From a virus, in IMG/VR virus record IMGVR_UViG_3300029397_000032, positions 1 to 40,006 of that record: a stretch of 40,006 nt of DNA; one strand, 5' to 3'. Below are positions 9,449 through 40,006 of the stretch, piece after piece. The notes below the pieces were generated by a model that saw nothing but the letters and a program-made list of their open reading frames with translations, ran no database searches and was not told the DNA's origin. The translations under genes and the position numbers were made by a program. Within the stretch, counting starts at the first letter, position 1; each line of letters opens with the position of its first letter.

Positions 9449-10045
9449 TTAGACCTGGTCCTCCGCGTAAATGCCGCCGGAGATGACGGCCGAACCAACC
9501 AGCATTTCGCCGTAAAGCAGCGGCACTGGGTTCCCCTGGGCGCTGGTGTTGACTGCACCGTTGAAGTTGTATGAGGCGCCGTTCTGCGGCGCATCCCTGG
9601 CCGACAGCCCTTGTGGCTGCGGCGACAGCATCTGCACGACACCGCCGAACATCATTGCCGCGCCCATCTGCATCAGCGGCGTACCGGCGCCGCCGCCATA
9701 GACGCTGATAACGGCGCCGACCACCACCAACACGGCGCCAAGAATGGTCTGCAGGATGCCGCCCCGCTTGCTCCCCATCAGCACAGGTGCAATGCGGATC
9801 TCGTCGCGCCCGGGCGGCAATTCCAGCTCTTCCTTGGCGAGGTTGCGCTTGCCCACGAAGACGGCGTAGGTGACTCCCCTGTCGCGACTGGTGAGGAGTT
9901 CGCGCTTGAAGCCAGCGAGCAGCACGCACAGCGCTTGGATGGCTTCGGCCGGGCTGGCGACAGCCAATTCAAAACGGCGGCCGAAGCGCGCGCCCAGCTT
10001 GCCGTACAGGCGCACGGTTCTCAATTTTTCCGATGTTGCGCACAT
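9449..10045 (-). CDS. Tail assembly protein I, ubiquitin-like N-terminus
   Basis: 198 residues. Residues 8-90 (VRLYGKLGARFGRRFELAV... IRIAPVL) form the beta-grasp, ubiquitin-like domain of the lambda gpI/TAPI family. It is followed by GSKRGG (91-96), then a hydrophobic Gly-rich segment (ILQTILGAVLVVVGAVIS) and a conserved end with PLLYGEMLVGSAVISGGIYAED. Family studies have suggested that the JAB domain of gpK could process this protein near the Gly-Gly. The ATG start has no good Shine-Dalgarno site: the nearest G-rich stretch is inside the upstream hairpin. It is needed for tip assembly but not found in virions in lambda. Confidence 0.88.
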   Translation of the reverse strand: MCATSEKLRTVRLYGKLGARFGRRFELAVASPAEAIQALCVLLAGFKRELLTSRDRGVTYAVFVGKRNLAKEELELPPGRDEIRIAPVLMGSKRGGILQTILGAVLVVVGAVISVYGGGAGTPLMQMGAAMMFGGVVQMLSPQPQGLSARDAPQNGASYNFNGAVNTSAQGNPVPLLYGEMLVGSAVISGGIYAEDQV

Positions 10046-30710: not shown

Positions 30711-30739
30711 ATTAAAGCATTCTTTCGAACAACCATCAA
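30711..30739 (-). promoter_or_regulatory. Early-right promoter (pR-like)
   Basis: Minus strand TTGATG (30739-30734), 17-bp spacer, TTTAAT (30716-30711): five of six matches at the -10 and five of six at the -35. The predicted start is the A of the cro ATG. It overlaps two operators. Confidence 0.7.
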
Positions 30740-30769
30740 CCATTCTTTATCGCTGCGTAAGTATGCTTT
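30714..30769. promoter_or_regulatory. Triple operator between cro and repressor genes
   Basis: Three copies of a 12-bp palindrome with consensus AAAGCATGCTTT: 30714-30725 (11/12), 30737-30748 (9/12) and 30758-30769 (10/12), spaced 23 and 21 bp, about two helical turns. The same sequence recurs at 31733 and 31756. Layout matches lambda OR. Confidence 0.75.
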
Positions 30770-30773
30770 ACTC

Positions 30774-31253
30774 ATGAAAGGAACGTACGGCGATCGCCTT
30801 CAGCACGCCCTCACCATTGCGAAGCGAACTCGACAAGAGCTCGCTGCGGCCCTGCACATCTCCGAGCAGGCGATTGGGCAGGTGCTGCTAGGCAATACGA
30901 AGGCTTTGGTCGCCGAGAACTCCGCACGCGCGGCACGATTCCTTGGTGTGGATCATTTCTGGCTCGCCACTGGCGAAGGTGAGCCCGTGGCGAGCACCAG
31001 CGCACCGACCACGTCATGGCCGTTTTCACGCGTCAACTTGGTTCGCGTGACGCAATTGCCCGCAGAAGAGTTGGCGTTTGTAGAGGCGAAGCTTGAATCG
31101 GAGATCGAGCGTGCAGAGGAGCGTTCTGCCGCTGCCGGCGCCAAACCAAGCGCAGCAGCATTCCCGGACGCGGGCACTGCTCCGACCGATGCCTATCTGG
31201 TGAACAAGTGGGAAACGCCTCCCGCAAAACGCCGTAAGAAAAGCGCCGCCTGA
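30774..31253 (+). CDS. CI-like phage repressor without S24 domain
   Basis: 159 residues from MKGTYGDRLQHALTIAKRTRQ. N-terminal HTH: ELAAALHISEQAIGQVLLGNTK, then FLGVDHFWLATGEG as in CI repressors. The part after residue 80 (WPFSRVNLVRVTQL, then a helical, Lys-rich tail) is too short for the LexA/S24 autopeptidase, and no Ser/Lys dyad is visible. No Shine-Dalgarno site lies before the ATG; TATGCT (30762-30767) 6 bp upstream could give a leaderless message, as for lambda cI. It faces cro across the operators, so it is the likely immunity repressor. Loss of lysogeny may use a mechanism other than RecA-stimulated cleavage. Confidence 0.8.
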   Translation: MKGTYGDRLQHALTIAKRTRQELAAALHISEQAIGQVLLGNTKALVAENSARAARFLGVDHFWLATGEGEPVASTSAPTTSWPFSRVNLVRVTQLPAEELAFVEAKLESEIERAEERSAAAGAKPSAAAFPDAGTAPTDAYLVNKWETPPAKRRKKSAA

Positions 31254-31260
31254 CCGCAAC

Positions 31261-31286
31261 ACCCGCTTCGTGCGGGTTTTCTTTTG
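31261..31286 (+). terminator. Intrinsic terminator after the repressor gene
   Basis: ACCCGC/GCGGGT stem (31261-31266, 31272-31277) with a TTCGT loop, followed by TTTCTTTT. It isolates the repressor transcript from the early-left operon. Confidence 0.85.
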
Positions 31287-31718: not shown

Positions 31719-31732
31719 ACGCACGCGTAAAT

Positions 31733-31770
31733 AAAGCATGCTTGATTCTTAACATAAAGCATGCTTTACT
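31733..31770 (+). promoter_or_regulatory. Early-left operators and promoter (oL/pL-like)
   Basis: Operators AAAGCATGCTTG (31733-31744) and AAAGCATGCTTT (31756-31767, perfect palindrome), 23 bp apart. A promoter overlaps them: TTGATT (31742-31747), 17 bp, TTTACT (31765-31770). Transcription would begin near 31777 and enter the operon that carries the PRTRC genes. Confidence 0.7.
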
Positions 31771-32777: not shown

Positions 32778-33329
32778 ATGCTGATCGGACTTGCCGGCAA
32801 CGCCGGCGTTGGCAAAGACACGGCCGCAGGTTACCTGCGCGCCGCCCACGGGTTCCGGCAGATCGCGTTTGCCGACCCAATCCGCGCGATGTTGCTGGCA
32901 GCGCTGCCGCTAGAGCCGAAGGATTTCGAACACGGCCGCAAAGAAGAAATTTTGCCGGGCATCGGCAAGTCGCCGCGTCAACTCATGCAACTGCTGGGCA
33001 CTGAGTGGGGCCGCTATCTTGTGCACCCCGAGATTTGGGTGCGCCTGGCCGAAGACAAGGTACTGGCCGAGCACGTCGCACTCGGGCGCGCCCTGGTGGT
33101 CTCGGATGTACGCGAGGAAAACGAAGCCGCGATGATCCGCAAGCACCGTGGCGTGGTCGTCCACCTTCGTCGCAACGCTGCGCTCTGTGTTGTCAGCCAT
33201 AGCACCGAGTCGGGGATTGCGGTGTGCCCCGGCGACTGGGAAATCCAAAACGACCGTCGCCCCGAAGACTTGTTCGACGAGCTCGACCGCCTTGTCGAAG
33301 ACCAGCATTTCGTGCGGGTGCAGGGATGA
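32778..33329 (+). CDS. Deoxynucleoside monophosphate kinase-like P-loop protein
   Basis: 183 residues. P-loop GNAGVGKDT (7-15), FADPIRAML, SPRQLMQLLGTEWGR and a VSDVREENEAAMI motif match phage dNMP kinases (T4 gp1 superfamily). It would phosphorylate dNMPs to feed phage DNA synthesis. The usual acceptor-binding details cannot be judged. It ends in ATGA overlap with the next gene. Confidence 0.85.
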   Translation: MLIGLAGNAGVGKDTAAGYLRAAHGFRQIAFADPIRAMLLAALPLEPKDFEHGRKEEILPGIGKSPRQLMQLLGTEWGRYLVHPEIWVRLAEDKVLAEHVALGRALVVSDVREENEAAMIRKHRGVVVHLRRNAALCVVSHSTESGIAVCPGDWEIQNDRRPEDLFDELDRLVEDQHFVRVQG

Positions 33330-33589: not shown

Positions 33590-34207
33590 ATGTTCACTGA
33601 AATCCATGCGCTTGCACGCGCTGCATCCCTGCTCATTTCGGTTGCCGCCGAGGGCGACGACCTGCGCGTGACAATCAACGCAGCGCCAACCAGCAAGAAC
33701 AGCTCCGCCATGCATCCGCTGGTGCTGGTGGGCACGCCGGAAGAGCTCGACGCGGGCTTTGCGCAGGCCATCGAGATCTTCGAGCCGTCTGCGCTGCCAC
33801 TGCTGGAACAGGCTCAAGCTGCCGCAAACGCCAATGGCAACAAGGGCAAGGGCACCGCCAAGGAAGCCACAAAGCCCAGTACCAAGACAGACACGCCAGC
33901 CGCTGGAACACCACCCAAGCGGGGCCCAGGTCGGCCACCCAAGAGCGCCAGCTCGAATGCGGCCGAGAAAGCGGATACCGGCGCTGCAGCCCATGGCGGC
34001 AACACCGATGCGGACGAGGACACGGGCGCGCCCGCAGTGGACCCGCGCCAGATGTCACTTGTCGAGCCCGCAGGCGATAGCAACCGGACCGGCACTGAAC
34101 AAGCTCATGCAGCGCAAACGCCGCAGGCAGAGCAGCCGACGGATGCGGCGCCCAATGCGCCGGCCAGCACCGACCCGCGCGACGTCGGCATCGACATGCC
34201 GATCTGA
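33590..34207 (+). CDS. PRTRC system protein E
   Basis: 205 residues. Residues 1-80 (MFTEIHALARAASLLISVAAEG, RVTINAAP, PLVLVGTPEELDAGFAQAI) are the conserved PRTRC E domain. The rest is disordered, with an AT-hook-like RGPGRPPK and acidic/Gln-rich tail. AGGAG precedes the ATG. First gene of the PRTRC block E-C-F-B-A-ThiF. Molecular role unknown; its domain may bind DNA or another cassette member. Confidence 0.85.
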   Translation: MFTEIHALARAASLLISVAAEGDDLRVTINAAPTSKNSSAMHPLVLVGTPEELDAGFAQAIEIFEPSALPLLEQAQAAANANGNKGKGTAKEATKPSTKTDTPAAGTPPKRGPGRPPKSASSNAAEKADTGAAAHGGNTDADEDTGAPAVDPRQMSLVEPAGDSNRTGTEQAHAAQTPQAEQPTDAAPNAPASTDPRDVGIDMPI

Positions 34208-34219
34208 ACGGAGCCACTC

Positions 34220-34624
34220 ATGCAAACAACCCAACTCACCCGTGAATTCCGATACAACGGCGTCCGCCTGGCCGACCCGTCGCCCAATTTCACGCTCGAG
34301 CAGGTGCGCGATTTCTACGCCAACACCTACGCGGGAATTCTCAACGCTGATATTGAAGGCCCCGCCGTTGAAGGCGCCCAGCAGGTGTACACGTTCCGCC
34401 GCGCCGTCGGCACCAAGGGCAACGACCTGGCCACGCTGCGCCAGCTGATCGCGGACGACGCCGTCGGCGGCGCACCGCGCGTCAAGCTGATCCCCACCAG
34501 CCAGCTCAACCACCCCGTAGCCAAACTCTTGCGGCAGACCACGCAGCGCTATCGTTACGGCAACAACCGCACGCGCAGCGCCTCACTCGTGCCGCCGTCA
34601 ACCGCCCTGCAGGTGCTGGCATGA
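34220..34624 (+). CDS. PRTRC system protein C, ubiquitin-like, with long extension
   Basis: 134 residues. Residues 1-67 fit PRTRC protein C (Prok_Ub): REFRYNGVRLADPSPNFT, VRDFYANTY, and FRRAVGTKG ending the beta-grasp domain. As I recall, family members usually end near this point. Here 67 further residues follow, including a Gly-Gly at 83-84 (DDAVGGAPR) and a basic end. If it is a modifier, it may need trimming by the JAB protein (A) to expose a glycine. The extension has normal codon use and overlaps the next start by ATGA, so it is not a frameshift. GGAG supports the start. Confidence 0.8.
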   Translation: MQTTQLTREFRYNGVRLADPSPNFTLEQVRDFYANTYAGILNADIEGPAVEGAQQVYTFRRAVGTKGNDLATLRQLIADDAVGGAPRVKLIPTSQLNHPVAKLLRQTTQRYRYGNNRTRSASLVPPSTALQVLA

Positions 34625-35667
34625 GCGCCCTGTCCCTGCCGCGTCTGAATGGCATTCCGCTCAGTCACGTATGCAAAGGCGGCGGCCAGGCATGGCACGC
34701 CCCCGCGCTCCTGGCCCTGCTGGATGCCGGCGCCCTGACGCTCGAAGACGCGCAGCCGAAGCCCAATAGCGCCGCTGCCTTGCTCAAGCGCACCCTGCAA
34801 CGGCACTGGAACGAAATTACCGCCGGCGAGCGCCTGCTCGTATGGAACCTGCATGCGCGCTCTATGTACAGCGATTGGCTCCGTCAGCCTGAACAACCGC
34901 AGCGCCTCTGGCTGTTCATCGGCGATGAGAGCGATCAGCCCCACGCCGTGCCGCAGTTGTACATTGGCCACGCGTTCGAGCGACTTGAATCCGTGCGCCA
35001 AGGCCTTGGCCAAACGGTGCTGGCCGTGCTGTACGACGCGCTGAGCCATCTGCCTAACGTGCTGACGCCACAGGAGTCGTTCTATCACGCCAGTTGGGTC
35101 CACTGGCACGGCACGGACGACGAAGAGGAAGCGATCGAGTGGATGTTCGGCGAAGGGGAATACAAGACCCGCGAGGAAGCCGCCGAGGCCTACGAGGGCC
35201 CCACACGCCTGGACTTCTTCGAACGCGTGCCCGAATGGGCCGTCCACCCCGAGCGCGTGCTAACGGATCGCCAGGTGCGCATTGCCGCGCGCAAAGACGC
35301 ACTGGCCGCGCAGGTTGTTGGCGCCGTGGACGACATCTGGCGCCACGCGCTCGCAACCGACGCCGCCGGTGGCTACGCCGACTGCAGCACACGCGACGCC
35401 GAGGGCGACTCGATCTGTTGGACTGCCGTTCTCATCTGGCACCCGGACGATCTGACGCTCCGCTTGGCCGACGATTTCCTGCAGCAGGTGTGTCAAGCCG
35501 AATACACCGATGCGGCAACGGTCAAGGCTCTCCCGATCGACAGCCACGATGCCGCCCAGTGGCTGCAGCAGATGCGCGCAAACGGCCAGCTCGCACGCCG
35601 CGTCGAAACCCTGCTAGATCTGCTTGCAGCGCAAAACCCGCTGCGCCAGCAGATCCGCGTGCAGTGA
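34621..35667 (+). CDS. PRTRC system protein F
   Basis: 348 residues, soluble, with LSLPRLNGIPLSHVCKGGG, SWVHWHGTDDEEEAIEWMFGEGE and DDIWRHALATDAAGG. Size, order and character agree with PRTRC F proteins, whose activity is unknown. It overlaps C by ATGA and precedes B by 7 bp. No catalytic motif is seen. Confidence 0.75.
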   Translation: MSALSLPRLNGIPLSHVCKGGGQAWHAPALLALLDAGALTLEDAQPKPNSAAALLKRTLQRHWNEITAGERLLVWNLHARSMYSDWLRQPEQPQRLWLFIGDESDQPHAVPQLYIGHAFERLESVRQGLGQTVLAVLYDALSHLPNVLTPQESFYHASWVHWHGTDDEEEAIEWMFGEGEYKTREEAAEAYEGPTRLDFFERVPEWAVHPERVLTDRQVRIAARKDALAAQVVGAVDDIWRHALATDAAGGYADCSTRDAEGDSICWTAVLIWHPDDLTLRLADDFLQQVCQAEYTDAATVKALPIDSHDAAQWLQQMRANGQLARRVETLLDLLAAQNPLRQQIRVQ

Positions 35668-35674
35668 GGCCAGC

Positions 35675-36403
35675 ATGGGCCAAGTTACCATTTCCGCCGA
35701 CCCCAGCAACAGCGAGCTCAAGCTGCGACACGCCGTGCTGCTGTACGACAACGCGTCGCCCGACGGCACGGTTTACGCCACCACGCACGACGTCGAATTG
35801 CTGCCGACCGGCGCGCAGTTGCTGCCCGGCCGCGCGCTTGACCTGAGCGAACTCAGCCAGTTTGTCGAGGCCGCGCAGGCGCAGACAGCGTATCGCGGTT
35901 TTATCGATTCGCGCTTGCTTTACGTCGCCCCCAACACGATGGCCTGGTGGTGCCCGGCTGCTTGCCGCACTACGTGGTTCCGCTCCGACCAGCCGATCGG
36001 CGAACGGCATGGCGTGACGCCACACCCGGCGCTGGTGTTCATCGCGCGCGAGCACATTTGGTTTGTGTTCGCGCTGGCCGAGAACGAGCGCCCCGAGCCA
36101 CGCACGGCCCTGCGTGTCGCGCCGTATTTCAACGTATGGAAGACCGGCCAGGTGTGCACGGGCAACGTATCGCTGCCCGACATACCAACGCCGGACGCGC
36201 TGCGCACCTACGAAGAAGCATTCTTCCGCAGCCGCTTCACGCACCCAAATCACCCGCGCATCACCCGATACAAGGGCGGTGGCCGCGCGCTTTGGGCGCA
36301 CCTGCTCGAGCACCCTGAAATTACCGAATTCCCGACAACTGCCCTGCTCCCGCAAAAGGAAACGCTGGAGCAGGCCATCAAGCGCATTTCTTCCGGAGCC
36401 TGA
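35675..36403 (+). CDS. PRTRC system protein B, E2-like
   Basis: 242 residues from MGQVTISADPSNSE. The core WWCPAACRTTWF and TGQVCTGNVSLP match PRTRC B (Prok-E2_D). Cys161 in the VCTGN motif is the expected thioester-forming residue; this is family inference. It would accept the ubiquitin-like C protein from ThiF. The long minus-strand frame across it is a shadow. Confidence 0.85.
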   Translation: MGQVTISADPSNSELKLRHAVLLYDNASPDGTVYATTHDVELLPTGAQLLPGRALDLSELSQFVEAAQAQTAYRGFIDSRLLYVAPNTMAWWCPAACRTTWFRSDQPIGERHGVTPHPALVFIAREHIWFVFALAENERPEPRTALRVAPYFNVWKTGQVCTGNVSLPDIPTPDALRTYEEAFFRSRFTHPNHPRITRYKGGGRALWAHLLEHPEITEFPTTALLPQKETLEQAIKRISSGA

Positions 36404-36404
36404 T

Positions 36405-37190
36405 ATGCAAGCCATCATCGAACAATTCCACGCCACGTCGCAGGAAGGCCTCATGCGCATTGCTGGCGCCCTGGACGATTTCGCGAAGGCAGCCGCCGAC
36501 AAGGTCACCAAGGCGCTGCGCAATCCGATCGCCGCCGACCAGGCCGACGAGAAATACGAGCTCGACTCGAAACTGTGGGACAGCGCGCCGACGGTGGCGG
36601 TGCCGAAGTTCGCCGCCTTCAAGGAGCTCGAAGAGGTAGGCCACCGGTTCCTGGCCACGGCCGAAGGCCTGTTCGTGGAAGTCCGCCGCCCGTGGCTGCA
36701 TGTCATTCAGCCTGTTGCGCCACTCAATGGGCAGACCGTCCGGCCGCCATACGGCTCCGTGCAGCCCAAGGTGAAGCTGGCATTCGAACGCCTCGGCACC
36801 ACGTTCCCCTTGGTGCGCCAATTCATCGAAGCCGCACAGTCCGCCTCCCCCAACGAGCATGCCGCGTGGGTGATCTGGGACAGCCGCACCGGAGACCTGC
36901 AGTATCGCGAACTGAATATCACCAATGCCTCACCCGACGCAGTTTCCTACGATCGACCAGTGCTGGAAGCGCACGAATCGCTGGTGCTCGACCTGCACAG
37001 CCACGGCGTAACGGCAGCCTTTTTCAGCGACACCGACAACCAGGACGATGCTGGTGAGGTGAAGATTTCCTGCGTGGTCGGCGACTTGGCCGACGGAAAA
37101 GCGCCAACGATTCGATTCCGCCTGTGCGCACTCGGGATGTTCCTCCCCCTCAACGTGCCCGTATCGGCAGTGATCGGAGACGGCGCATGA
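36405..37190 (+). CDS. PRTRC system protein A, JAB-type metallopeptidase
   Basis: 261 residues. The C-terminal domain has LDLHSHGVTAAFFSDTDNQDD with H198-x-H200, S208 and D211, and a likely Glu151 (EHAAWVIW): a full JAMM zinc site. JAB proteins act as deubiquitinase-like isopeptidases. The N-terminal 80 residues are helical. Starts 1 bp after B's stop and overlaps ThiF by ATGA. It probably processes or removes the C protein. Confidence 0.87.
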   Translation: MQAIIEQFHATSQEGLMRIAGALDDFAKAAADKVTKALRNPIAADQADEKYELDSKLWDSAPTVAVPKFAAFKELEEVGHRFLATAEGLFVEVRRPWLHVIQPVAPLNGQTVRPPYGSVQPKVKLAFERLGTTFPLVRQFIEAAQSASPNEHAAWVIWDSRTGDLQYRELNITNASPDAVSYDRPVLEAHESLVLDLHSHGVTAAFFSDTDNQDDAGEVKISCVVGDLADGKAPTIRFRLCALGMFLPLNVPVSAVIGDGA

Positions 37191-38002
37191 CGACGGCTGT
37201 CCATATCACCCCGCCGCGCATGCTGTCCGAGCGCGTTGCCATCGTGCTGATCGGCTGCGGCGGCAACGGCTCGCAAATGCTCACAGGCCTAGCCAGGCTC
37301 GACCACGCCATCCGCGCACTCGGCCACCCGGGCCTCGACGTGGAGGTGTTCGACCCCGACATCGTGAGCGAGGCGAATATCGGCCGGCAGTTGTTCAGCC
37401 CGGCCGACGTCGGCCAATTCAAGGCGTGCGTGCACACCCAGCGCATCAACCATTTCTTTGGGCTCGACTGGCGCGCGCAACCGCGCAAGTTCGAGCGCAG
37501 CAATGGCGCCCGCCCGGCAGCGCGGCCGGCCATTTTCATCGTTTGCGTTGACAGCAAGGCGGCGCGCAAATCGATTGACGCTGGCCTAACTAGCCGCGTG
37601 AACACCTACCTGCTCGACCTGGGCAACCGCGCCAGTGACGGCCAGGTGCTATTCGGCCAATCGCCGCGCACTGTAATCGAGGATGAGGAAGGCAACGAGG
37701 TTCACAACGCCCGATTCAATCCTGTCGGCAGCGTGCCGCTGCCGTATCCGTATGACGTGCTGCCCGAGCTCGTCGACACCAGCGAGCCGGAAGACGACAC
37801 ACCGTCGTGCGGCCTGGCCGAGGCGCTCGCGCGCCAGGAGCTATTCGTCAATCAATCCGTCGTCACGCCGGCGCTGGCCATTCTGTGGGAGTTTTTCCGC
37901 CACGGCCGCCTGACCTGGCATGGGGCGTTCGTCAACCTCAAGACGGGAAGCATGCGGCCGGTGGCAGTGCGCGCAGACCTGACCGGAGACAATGATGAAT
38001 AG
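37187..38002 (+). CDS. PRTRC system ThiF-family (E1-like) adenylating enzyme
   Basis: 271 residues. Nucleotide-binding loop GCGGNGS (24-30), FDPDIVSEANIGRQLF with the conserved acidic and Arg residues, and a catalytic Cys candidate, Cys208 (PSCGLAEALARQELFVNQ). E1-like enzymes adenylate the modifier C-terminus and form a thioester. Last gene of the cassette; ATGA overlap with A. No ParB or protein D gene follows in the window. Confidence 0.88.
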   Translation: MTTAVHITPPRMLSERVAIVLIGCGGNGSQMLTGLARLDHAIRALGHPGLDVEVFDPDIVSEANIGRQLFSPADVGQFKACVHTQRINHFFGLDWRAQPRKFERSNGARPAARPAIFIVCVDSKAARKSIDAGLTSRVNTYLLDLGNRASDGQVLFGQSPRTVIEDEEGNEVHNARFNPVGSVPLPYPYDVLPELVDTSEPEDDTPSCGLAEALARQELFVNQSVVTPALAILWEFFRHGRLTWHGAFVNLKTGSMRPVAVRADLTGDNDE

Positions 38003-38012
38003 CGCAAGCAGC

Positions 38013-38624
38013 TCAGGCCCAGATGGCTCCGCGAGCGGCCTGATCGCACTCTTTGCAAGCCGTATCGATGAGTCGAGATGCCTCACCCGTAATGGCGGCC
38101 AGTGTAATAGCACGCGTCTTTCTAGTTTCCGACATGTCGAGCCCGCCGGACGAATAATGCGTCAGCAGCCTGCGCGCAACAACGAGGCGGTCCTGCGCGC
38201 TAGCAATGGCGGATGCGCAGTTGCCGAGCGGAATCAATGGCTCAATTTCTGCCATGCTGAAAGTAATCAAACCGCTCAGGTGCTCTTGCCATTCCTCGAA
38301 CGCGGACGGGGCGCAGTCCATCTGACTCGCTTCGCGCATTTTTGTGTGCAGCCCCCGAACATCAACTGCCACAATCGAAAGCCTAAACGACAACGATGCC
38401 GCCGCCAGAGCCGCGCGCTCCCAGCCCTCCTTCTTTCGTCGGCGCGCATCTCTGTTGGCGAGAAGGAGCGCGACAACCGCAGCGCCAACCGTCCCGAGAG
38501 CGGTCAGTACATCCCAGAAATCCTTCTGTGGACCGAAGTGCCAAACGGTAGCGACCGCGAGGCCAGACACAAGCCCGGCGAGCAGCGCAGCAACCCACTC
38601 CTCGTGTCGTTCAAAGAACGGCAT
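38013..38624 (-). CDS. Two-TM membrane protein with cytoplasmic helical domain
   Basis: 203 residues. TM1 WVAALLAGLVSGLAVATVW and TM2 ALGTVGAAVVALLLA, a basic stop (RDARRRKKEGW), then about 140 helical residues. GGGGGAGG precedes the ATG. It faces against both flanking plus-strand genes and is convergent with ThiF. Orientation suggests an independent moron expressed in the lysogen; superinfection exclusion or defence is a guess. Confidence 0.7.
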   Translation of the reverse strand: MPFFERHEEWVAALLAGLVSGLAVATVWHFGPQKDFWDVLTALGTVGAAVVALLLANRDARRRKKEGWERAALAAASLSFRLSIVAVDVRGLHTKMREASQMDCAPSAFEEWQEHLSGLITFSMAEIEPLIPLGNCASAIASAQDRLVVARRLLTHYSSGGLDMSETRKTRAITLAAITGEASRLIDTACKECDQAARGAIWA

Positions 38625-38684: not shown

Positions 38685-38903
38685 ATGAAGCCGATTATCT
38701 ACCTCGATCTCCAGTCGGTCGCCGCAGCGGTCTCATTATCCGAGACGAGCGTGCAGCAACTAGTTCGCGAGGAGTCATTTCCAAAGCCGCGGAAAATCTC
38801 CGCCCGCCGTGTCGCTTGGCTGTTACGCGAAGTACAGGAATGGGCGGAAGCGCAGCCGATTTCGGATCTACCACCACCGCCCAACACTGGCCGGCGCACC
38901 TAG
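38685..38903 (+). CDS. Excisionase-like (AlpA/MerR-type) DNA-binding protein
   Basis: 72 residues. LQSVAAAVSLSETSVQQLVREESFPKPRKI is a short winged HTH as in AlpA/phage excisionases, then ARRVAWLLREVQEWAEAQ. It is convergent with and overlaps the integrase 3' end by 4 bp. Expected to direct excision. Weak binding site. Confidence 0.75.
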   Translation: MKPIIYLDLQSVAAAVSLSETSVQQLVREESFPKPRKISARRVAWLLREVQEWAEAQPISDLPPPPNTGRRT

Positions 38904-40006
38904 GACTTTGGCATGGCCGCGCACCGCTCCAGGTGCTCGGCCAATCGCGCCAACCACTCGCGCCGCTCGCGGTCGTAGGTGTGGCGGTTATAGATTCCTT
39001 CCACACCTGGCAGCATGTGCCCAAGAATCGATTCACCAACCTCCATCGGGCAGCCCAGCGCAGCAAGCATCGTCCTCGCTGTTCTACGCAGATCGTGCGG
39101 TGCCCACTGTGTCACCGGTAACCTCGGCCGACGCGCGTTCGGCCGCTCTTCGCAATAAGGCATGTGGTACCACACCAGTCTGCCGACCGTTTTCTGCGAA
39201 ACCACGGCCCCTGTTTTGGAGGGGAACAGATAGCCCTCACGATCCGCTAAGGCAAGGCGACGGCGCACGATAGCCTCAGCACGGTCAACAAGGGGCACGC
39301 GCAAATCCGTCGCCCCTTCCCGCTTCGCATTCTTGGTTTTGGCATGCGGCACAGTCCACCAGAGCCCATCGGGCTCCTCGGTAATTTCCGACGCCCGCAT
39401 CTCGACAATTTCGCCGCCACGCGCACCAGTCCACAGATAAAGCGCACACACATCGGCAATCAGCGTCGAGAAATTTGGGAGCCAACGAATCAGCTCGCCA
39501 GCCTCCGCATCCGATAGAACCCGCTTCACCTTGCCGATCGGCTTCCCGTTAATCGACTTGCCGACGCTACGCAAGCGGCCGCGCATGATTTCACGCCACC
39601 AGTTCGGCACAGTCTCGCCCAGCCGGCCGGAGTCGTGACCGTAACTCCAGGCGGCCCCAAGCTCTCTACGCAGTTTGCCCGCTTGCACAGGGATATGTGC
39701 GTATGAATTGAGAAGATCGAACGCCACGGCGCGCGTCACCTGTTCAGGCAAAAGATCTGCAATTGGGTCCAGCATCGTCTTGAACATGCGGCGAATCTCG
39801 CGCGCGCCCTTCAACGCGCGGTTTCTCTCGATGTGGCCCGTCACGTAGTCATCGCACATCGCGCGCACCGTGTATGGCTCTGCGCCGACCACACCCCTCC
39901 CGCCGACAGCCGCGCGCATGGCTCGCTTTTCAATAGCGACATCACGGCCAGCGTCGCGCGCCTGGCGTAGCTTTTCCCACTCGACAATCGCCGCTGCTAC
40001 CGACAT
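38900..40006 (-). CDS. Tyrosine integrase, N-terminus cut by the window edge
   Basis: 368 residues in the window; the gene continues right, because the first visible residues (MSVAAAIVEWEKLRQARDAG) resemble the interior of arm-type-domain integrases. The catalytic core has GARGGEI (Arg I), HAKTKNAK (Lys), HDLRRTART (His-x-x-Arg), LGHM and the Tyr in YNRHTYDR. It recombines attP and attB. The attachment site lies outside or cannot be identified here. Confidence 0.92.
   Translation of the reverse strand: MSVAAAIVEWEKLRQARDAGRDVAIEKRAMRAAVGGRGVVGAEPYTVRAMCDDYVTGHIERNRALKGAREIRRMFKTMLDPIADLLPEQVTRAVAFDLLNSYAHIPVQAGKLRRELGAAWSYGHDSGRLGETVPNWWREIMRGRLRSVGKSINGKPIGKVKRVLSDAEAGELIRWLPNFSTLIADVCALYLWTGARGGEIVEMRASEITEEPDGLWWTVPHAKTKNAKREGATDLRVPLVDRAEAIVRRRLALADREGYLFPSKTGAVVSQKTVGRLVWYHMPYCEERPNARRPRLPVTQWAPHDLRRTARTMLAALGCPMEVGESILGHMLPGVEGIYNRHTYDRERREWLARLAEHLERCAAMPKS

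Follow-up and report, generated by a model that had tools for sequence, protein, structure and literature searches.

Cassettes of the PRTRC type (ParB-related, ThiF-related cassette; TIGR03734-03742) are familiar from plasmids and integrative elements, for instance pMOL28, pHG1 and EbN1 plasmid 1. In these elements ParB is encoded upstream of six families in the order E, C, F, B, A and ThiF, a small gene that we call X lies between C and F, and a further family, D, is encoded elsewhere on the plasmid (as seen on pMOL28). Their protein C ends at a GxKG motif or at most five residues beyond it. We know of no explanation of PRTRC function since the cassette was named. Conjugation of ubiquitin-like (Ubl) proteins in bacteria has hitherto been described mainly as host defence. 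Here we describe a PRTRC cassette in a virus, the 40,006-base IMG/VR record IMGVR_UViG_3300029397_000032 (positions 1 to 40,006, referred to as the window), the right end of which falls inside an integrase gene. We suspect that this phage-borne cassette conjugates a Ubl modifier made from a precursor, in a process likely directed at the host, and we assign this mechanism as a whole a probability of about 0.62.

Six contiguous genes fill positions 33590-38002, all on the plus strand, with spacings of +12, -4, +7, +1 and -4 bp. They and the two parts of C are as follows (E-values of profile matches in brackets):

33590..34207, plus strand: PRTRC E, 205 amino acids (TIGR03741, 6.7e-20; PF19556, 4.4e-7)
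34220-34624, plus strand: PRTRC C, 134 amino acids (TIGR03738, 9.7e-31; Prok_Ub, 1e-24)
34220..34420, plus strand: ubiquitin-like core of C, residues 1-67, with GTKG as residues 64-67
34421..34621, plus strand: C-terminal extension of C, 67 amino acids, a fused protein X by its match to a model of separate X genes (3.9e-6)
34621..35667, plus strand: PRTRC F, 348 amino acids, mostly helical (TIGR03742, 6.1e-59; predicted local distance difference test, pLDDT, 88.5)
35675..36403, plus strand: PRTRC B, E2-like, with Cys161 in VCTGN (TIGR03737, 3e-73; PF14460, 1.2e-44)
36405..37190, plus strand: PRTRC A, DUF2016 plus JAMM metallopeptidase (TIGR03735, 4.1e-75)
37187..38002, plus strand: PRTRC ThiF, E1-like, with adenylation residues and Cys208 in PSC (TIGR03736, 2.1e-96)

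All six exceed the curated NCBIfam cut-offs (score/cut-off: E 71.0/38.0, C 105.7/46.0, F 199.7/58.4, B 245.9/131.5, A 251.6/101.8, ThiF 322.0/144.8), which bears out the contiguous six-gene cassette that an earlier note on this DNA had reported. The profile searches proposed there for Prok_Ub, Prok-E2_D, JAB and ThiF all gave matches in Pfam: Prok_Ub in C (1e-24), Prok-E2_D in B (1.2e-44), DUF2016 and Prok-JAB in A, and ThiF in the E1-like protein (8.5e-12). The Pfam matches of E and F were weaker, that of F lying under the alpha-hel2 cut-off. The N-terminal ~100 residues of E are conserved, and the rest of the protein is long, of low complexity and probably disordered.

Catalytic residues, folds and distribution

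In alignments, the adenylation residues of ThiF are nearly invariant, and its catalytic cysteine (Cys208) is kept in 169 of 171 loci. The VCTGN cysteine of the E2-like protein, to which the earlier note had drawn attention, is present as Cys161 of B and kept in 168 of 170 loci, and the JAMM motif of A (HSH..S..D; in the window Glu151, His198, His200, Ser208 and Asp211) was found in 128 of 128. A profile of the E1 placed ubiquitin- and NEDD8-activating enzymes first among its solved relatives, ahead of ThiF or MoeB. The model of C has the beta-grasp order beta-beta-alpha-beta-beta, with GTKG in the linker preceding the tail. When it was used in a fold search, residues 6-65 aligned with residues 1-76 of ubiquitin at a modest Z of about 5, and nearly all top chains were ubiquitin or its relatives; Foldseek scores were likewise modest (E above 0.4), and a sequence search of the PDB with C, B and A returned zero matches. 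F gave a confident helical model, yet its best Z was 3.2 and Foldseek in the PDB gave E above 1; it had one weak match (3.2e-3), to an uncharacterised phage protein, and no clear match to a solved fold.

A ThiF scan of viral contigs yielded 79 loci, mostly in records of ~40 kb; a first genome scan using B alone had found nothing. Prophage-type loci in genome contigs came from Cupriavidus, Paraburkholderia, Caballeronia, Trinickia, Burkholderia, Massilia, Duganella and Janthinobacterium. In Burkholderiales, some 95 loci (prophage or viral) have the same E-C-F-B-A-ThiF set, and all six genes are present in 94 of the 98 phage-clade loci. In the E1 tree, 29 sampled phage rows, including the window, form one branch (support 100/99) that adjoins the ParB-bearing types of proteobacterial plasmids and integrative and conjugative elements (ICEs). 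A local profile for PRTRC ParB gave no match in the window, and no PRTRC ParB was over the cut-off in 47 phage records; it was detected in the control plasmid pMOL28 and the ICE-like locus L079. PRTRC D was found neither in the window, whose right end is cut, nor in 49 viral records, and the control plasmid has it. Judged by its gene content, the window cassette is a ParB-less phage variant of PRTRC. The idea of a plasmid-type cassette that had strayed into one prophage, as presented earlier, gives way to that of a phage clade without PRTRC ParB or D.

The isolated phage BgVeeders33 (OK665841; B. gladioli, sewage, complete genome) belongs to this picture. Like the window, it has a complete cassette in an early position, with a ThiF that is 56.5% identical; unlike the window, it has a contractile tail, a C tail of the HVCPLLDAEIAF type and a separate X. 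The annotation of its cassette names nothing beyond hypothetical proteins and a 'dinucleotide-utilizing enzyme', and among the papers searched we found none linking PRTRC to phage genomes as a phage system.

A second lineage (L172-L243) consists of Bacteroidota-like PRTRC cassettes without the JAMM protease in viral contigs. Given that 20 of the 41 tested have a recognisable terminase, at least part of this lineage is probably viral too. A single isolate genome (IMG 2687453415) is the source of three different viral records with PRTRC cassettes (L005, L016 and L068), which means that one host can hold several such prophages.

The glycine boundary of C, its tails and gene X

At 134 amino acids, the window C is double the 66-position model of its family, and a second domain follows GTKG. 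The earlier note overlooked both this extension and gene X. Comparison of C across 171 loci shows a core whose last residues are GTKG or a near match. The codons of GTKG vary synonymously, so the motif is conserved as protein sequence, and the residues right after it vary freely. C stops at the GxKG end in all 41 loci without A (one as GTKA). Among further viral loci without A in which C was detectable, 62 of 65 end at a GxKG-type motif (one GTKA) and the remaining three at the variants ...QLG or ...RLG. For proteobacterial plasmid and ICE types with A, the end is at the motif or at most five residues beyond it (26 of 28). In the phage clade, C ends within three residues in only 12 of 95 loci and runs on for 57-100 residues in the other 83. 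Gly67 of the window C is internal, and the matching position is the natural C-terminal end in relatives without the protease.

Tails of at least 20 residues occur in these 83 phage loci and two others, and all 85 are A-bearing (Fisher p 6e-17 for the association, without correction for kinship, which inflates it). The two tailed C proteins outside the phage clade (L127 and L168) are from Polaromonas and Nitrospiraceae metagenome-assembled genomes, both with the JAMM protease. An E1 adenylates only a free C-terminal carboxylate, which is most simply reconciled with the tails if A cuts the C precursor. Iyer and colleagues predicted JAB peptidases in such a role for bacterial systems generally (PMC1779556), and the pattern of tails and protease may be regarded as sequence evidence for precursor cutting in PRTRC.

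The tails of the phage clade are unrelated families joined at the same residue of C: 37 loci have the HVCPLLDEEVAFI type, 28 an X-like type and 16 the LLHANWLD..DAEFIK type, and two are singletons. One singleton (L074:7049-7441) resembles a small zinc ribbon (CxxC...HCxxC) and directly follows GTKG. No Pfam family matched the tails over its cut-off, the only weak match being zinc-ribbon-like (L074). On the E1 tree, C proteins with and without a tail alternate inside the phage clade.

X is otherwise an unannotated gene of ~60 residues between C and F, the product of which has C termini such as PSADMPVLP, LLPPPGALPLVF and APSGAVMLF. It is fused directly to the GTKG end of C in the window and some 27 further loci of the phage clade. 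A hidden Markov model trained solely on separate X genes picks out 24 fused tails at E < 1e-3, that of the window at 3.9e-6. The last codons of X vary synonymously, so its C-terminal motif is not merely a product of the overlap with the start of F. Beyond the phage clade the X profile gave a single match with E < 1e-3, and X in plasmids and Bacteroidota is therefore recognised by position and motif; the motif was found in 18 of the 28 other loci that have A and 9 of the 41 that lack it, versus 0.5% of control open reading frames. X matched no Pfam family.

In the proposed mechanism, C would be translated as Ubl-GTKG followed by a C-terminal tail, which in the window is fused protein X. The JAMM protease A would cut after Gly67, leaving a free C-terminal glycine and a released tail. 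ThiF would adenylate the glycine and then hold C as a thioester on Cys208, from where it would be handed to Cys161 of B. B, helped by E, F and X in the role of adaptors or specificity factors, may then attach C to lysines on target proteins, and A could also take C off again. Conjugation would take place early in infection or upon induction. This scenario draws on features legible in the sequence (the gene set, intact catalytic residues, the glycine boundary, the association of tails with the protease, the operon position and the slot exchange described below), from which we infer cleavage, conjugation, timing and target. At somewhat less than even odds, the modifier may be fused to interchangeable C-terminal proteins, and the JAMM protease, in arming the modifier, would also free a second protein (X or others), coupling the two in their amount and time. 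X would then be a general, overlooked PRTRC component that might serve conjugation as a cofactor or be its first substrate.

Operon setting and rival readings

The left three quarters of the window hold a lambda-like structural module on the minus strand (terminase, ClpP-like head protease, tape measure, and J- and I-like tail proteins). Divergent cro-like and cI-like genes lie at ~30.5-31.3 kb, and from 31.8 to 38.0 kb genes are on the plus strand, toward xis and the integrase:

30777..31253, plus strand: cI-like repressor (phrog_2328, 1.7e-9)
31261-31277: terminator-like hairpin 3' of cI
31732..31768, no strand: two 14-bp palindromes TAAAGCATGCTTKA that head the operon, likely repressor operators (motif count)
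32778-33329: deoxynucleoside monophosphate kinase, upstream of the cassette
38685..38903, plus strand: excisionase-like protein at the far end of the early-left region (phrog_597, phrog_2790)
38900..40006, minus strand: tyrosine integrase, cut by the contig end (phrog_1, 5.3e-41)

As the earlier note had described, the E1, E2, Ubl and JAMM set is found in a lambda-like temperate phage; it is complete and lies in the operon downstream of the repressor. The palindrome copies before the operon (TAAAGCATGCTTGA and TAAAGCATGCTTTA, at 31732 and 31755) match imperfect copies between cro and cI at 30713 and 30736 (30713-30749), from which early or induced expression, likewise foreseen in that note, can fairly be inferred. 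The motif has seven matches over both strands, in four places, versus 0.46 expected; terminator-like hairpins in the region are at chance level. Position and palindromes fit a repressor-controlled early-left operon.

A close relative, L255, shares the kinase, xis and integrase neighbours of the window, and its flanks are 76-80% identical. In the cassette's place (L255:8506-12039) it has a C5 cytosine methylase and an HD-like protein (YfbR-like, below cut-off). Given that a DNA methyltransferase occupies the same slot in L255, the cassette appears to be an exchangeable early accessory, and action on the host is favoured since the slot can hold a gene of anti-restriction type. Tail sheath genes are present in only 12 of 49 cassette-bearing records and absent from the others, so the cassette moves between tail types. 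Its occurrence with both contractile and non-contractile tail modules disfavours the phage's own tail as a target, which had been among the candidates. Most likely, the cassette is an exchangeable accessory that acts on the host (in defence or takeover) rather than in virion assembly.

The integrase of L255 is full-length (444 amino acids) and adjoins host mutS. The membrane protein at 38013-38624 (minus strand), which adjoins xis in the window, is also found in the cassette-free L255 (34% identity). The nucleotide kinase is upstream of the cassette as had been stated, but it was rejected as a component of the system, given that only the window and L002 have it among PRTRC loci.

Several points weigh against host-directed conjugation from a precursor. 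The link between tails and protease follows clade lines, systems without A being mostly Bacteroidota. Untailed C is found in 22 systems with A, so processing cannot be the sole role of A. The modifier ends in a single glycine (GTKG), not Gly-Gly, and no target, E3 or adduct is known for the cassette. No clear promoter was found for the cassette operon, so that timing rests on position and operator-like repeats, and the slot exchange is seen in a single relative (L255).

We rank second, as a distinctly smaller probability, a lysogen defence of the moron type, in which C would be conjugated to proteins of competing phages, as in Bil and CBASS type II, and guard the lysogen from superinfection. 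The known bacterial systems with E1, E2 and JAB peptidase are antiviral (PMC10097602; Hor 2024, cited in PMC13373217), and an exchangeable accessory slot would suit such a role. However, a cassette headed by repressor operators should be off in a lysogen, and PADLOC gives only weak similarity to the E1 domain.

It is rather unlikely that the tail is kept, with the Ubl-tail fusion as the final product and the variable tails as working domains recruited by the Ubl core. Conservation of the tails as families (37, 28 and 16 members) and the existence of X as an independent gene elsewhere speak for it, but E1 chemistry requires a free C-terminal glycine, protease-free loci are never tailed, and tailed and short forms alternate inside the phage clade. 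Less probable still is the aid to replication or partition that the name PRTRC suggests. In proteobacterial plasmid and ICE relatives, ParB usually lies immediately upstream of E, whereas PRTRC ParB was undetected in the window with the local profile and not over the cut-off in any clear PRTRC phage; D is missing from the window and all phage records tested, and both are present in the control plasmid. A sulfur-carrier (ThiS/MoaD-like) or cofactor function in place of protein modification, for which a ThiF-type E1 and a small beta-grasp partner would speak, is very improbable given the E2-like protein with its conserved cysteine, an end that is not Gly-Gly, the absence of biosynthetic neighbours, and an E1 profile closer to ubiquitin- and NEDD8-activating enzymes than to ThiF or MoeB.

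Implications and comparison with known systems

About a hundred related phages and prophages with a full E1-E2-Ubl-protease set would put Ubl conjugation on the virus side; bacterial viruses probably use ubiquitin-style tagging themselves, to judge from these genomes. The glycine boundary offers a concrete handle on the role of PRTRC, gene X adds a missing component to the definition of the family, and the isolated phage is an obvious experimental system. Trypsin would leave a single glycine (+57.02) on the target lysine. This equals the mass of carbamidomethylation, and thus ordinary proteomics could overlook C adducts.

Bil (BilABCD), CBASS type II with Cap2/Cap3, and Bub likewise conjugate Ubl proteins in bacteria with an E1 and E2, and often have a JAB peptidase. 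They differ in serving host defence, in their protein families and in having fused or two-part E1s, and they do not share the C, F and E families. Bil, CBASS and E1-E2 defence models matched the cassette only in the E1 domain (E 1.9e-5 or weaker), with nothing for C, B or A.

For lambda tail proteins I and K (TAPI/TAPK), the prediction is that a JAB peptidase cleaves behind the C-terminal glycine of a Ub-like domain (PMC1779556). Unlike the cassette, these have no E1 or E2 and lie in the structural operon. The Lambda_tail_I domain is absent from the cassette and matches 9449-10045, a separate gene 24 kb away. This lambda tail-I-like gene represents a second Ub-like protein family in the window phage, unrelated to the cassette.

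Eukaryotic ubiquitin fusions and the precursors of SUMO and NEDD8 also have a C-terminal extension that is removed by a protease to expose a glycine. The logic is convergent, and the tails of phage PRTRC belong to several unrelated families.

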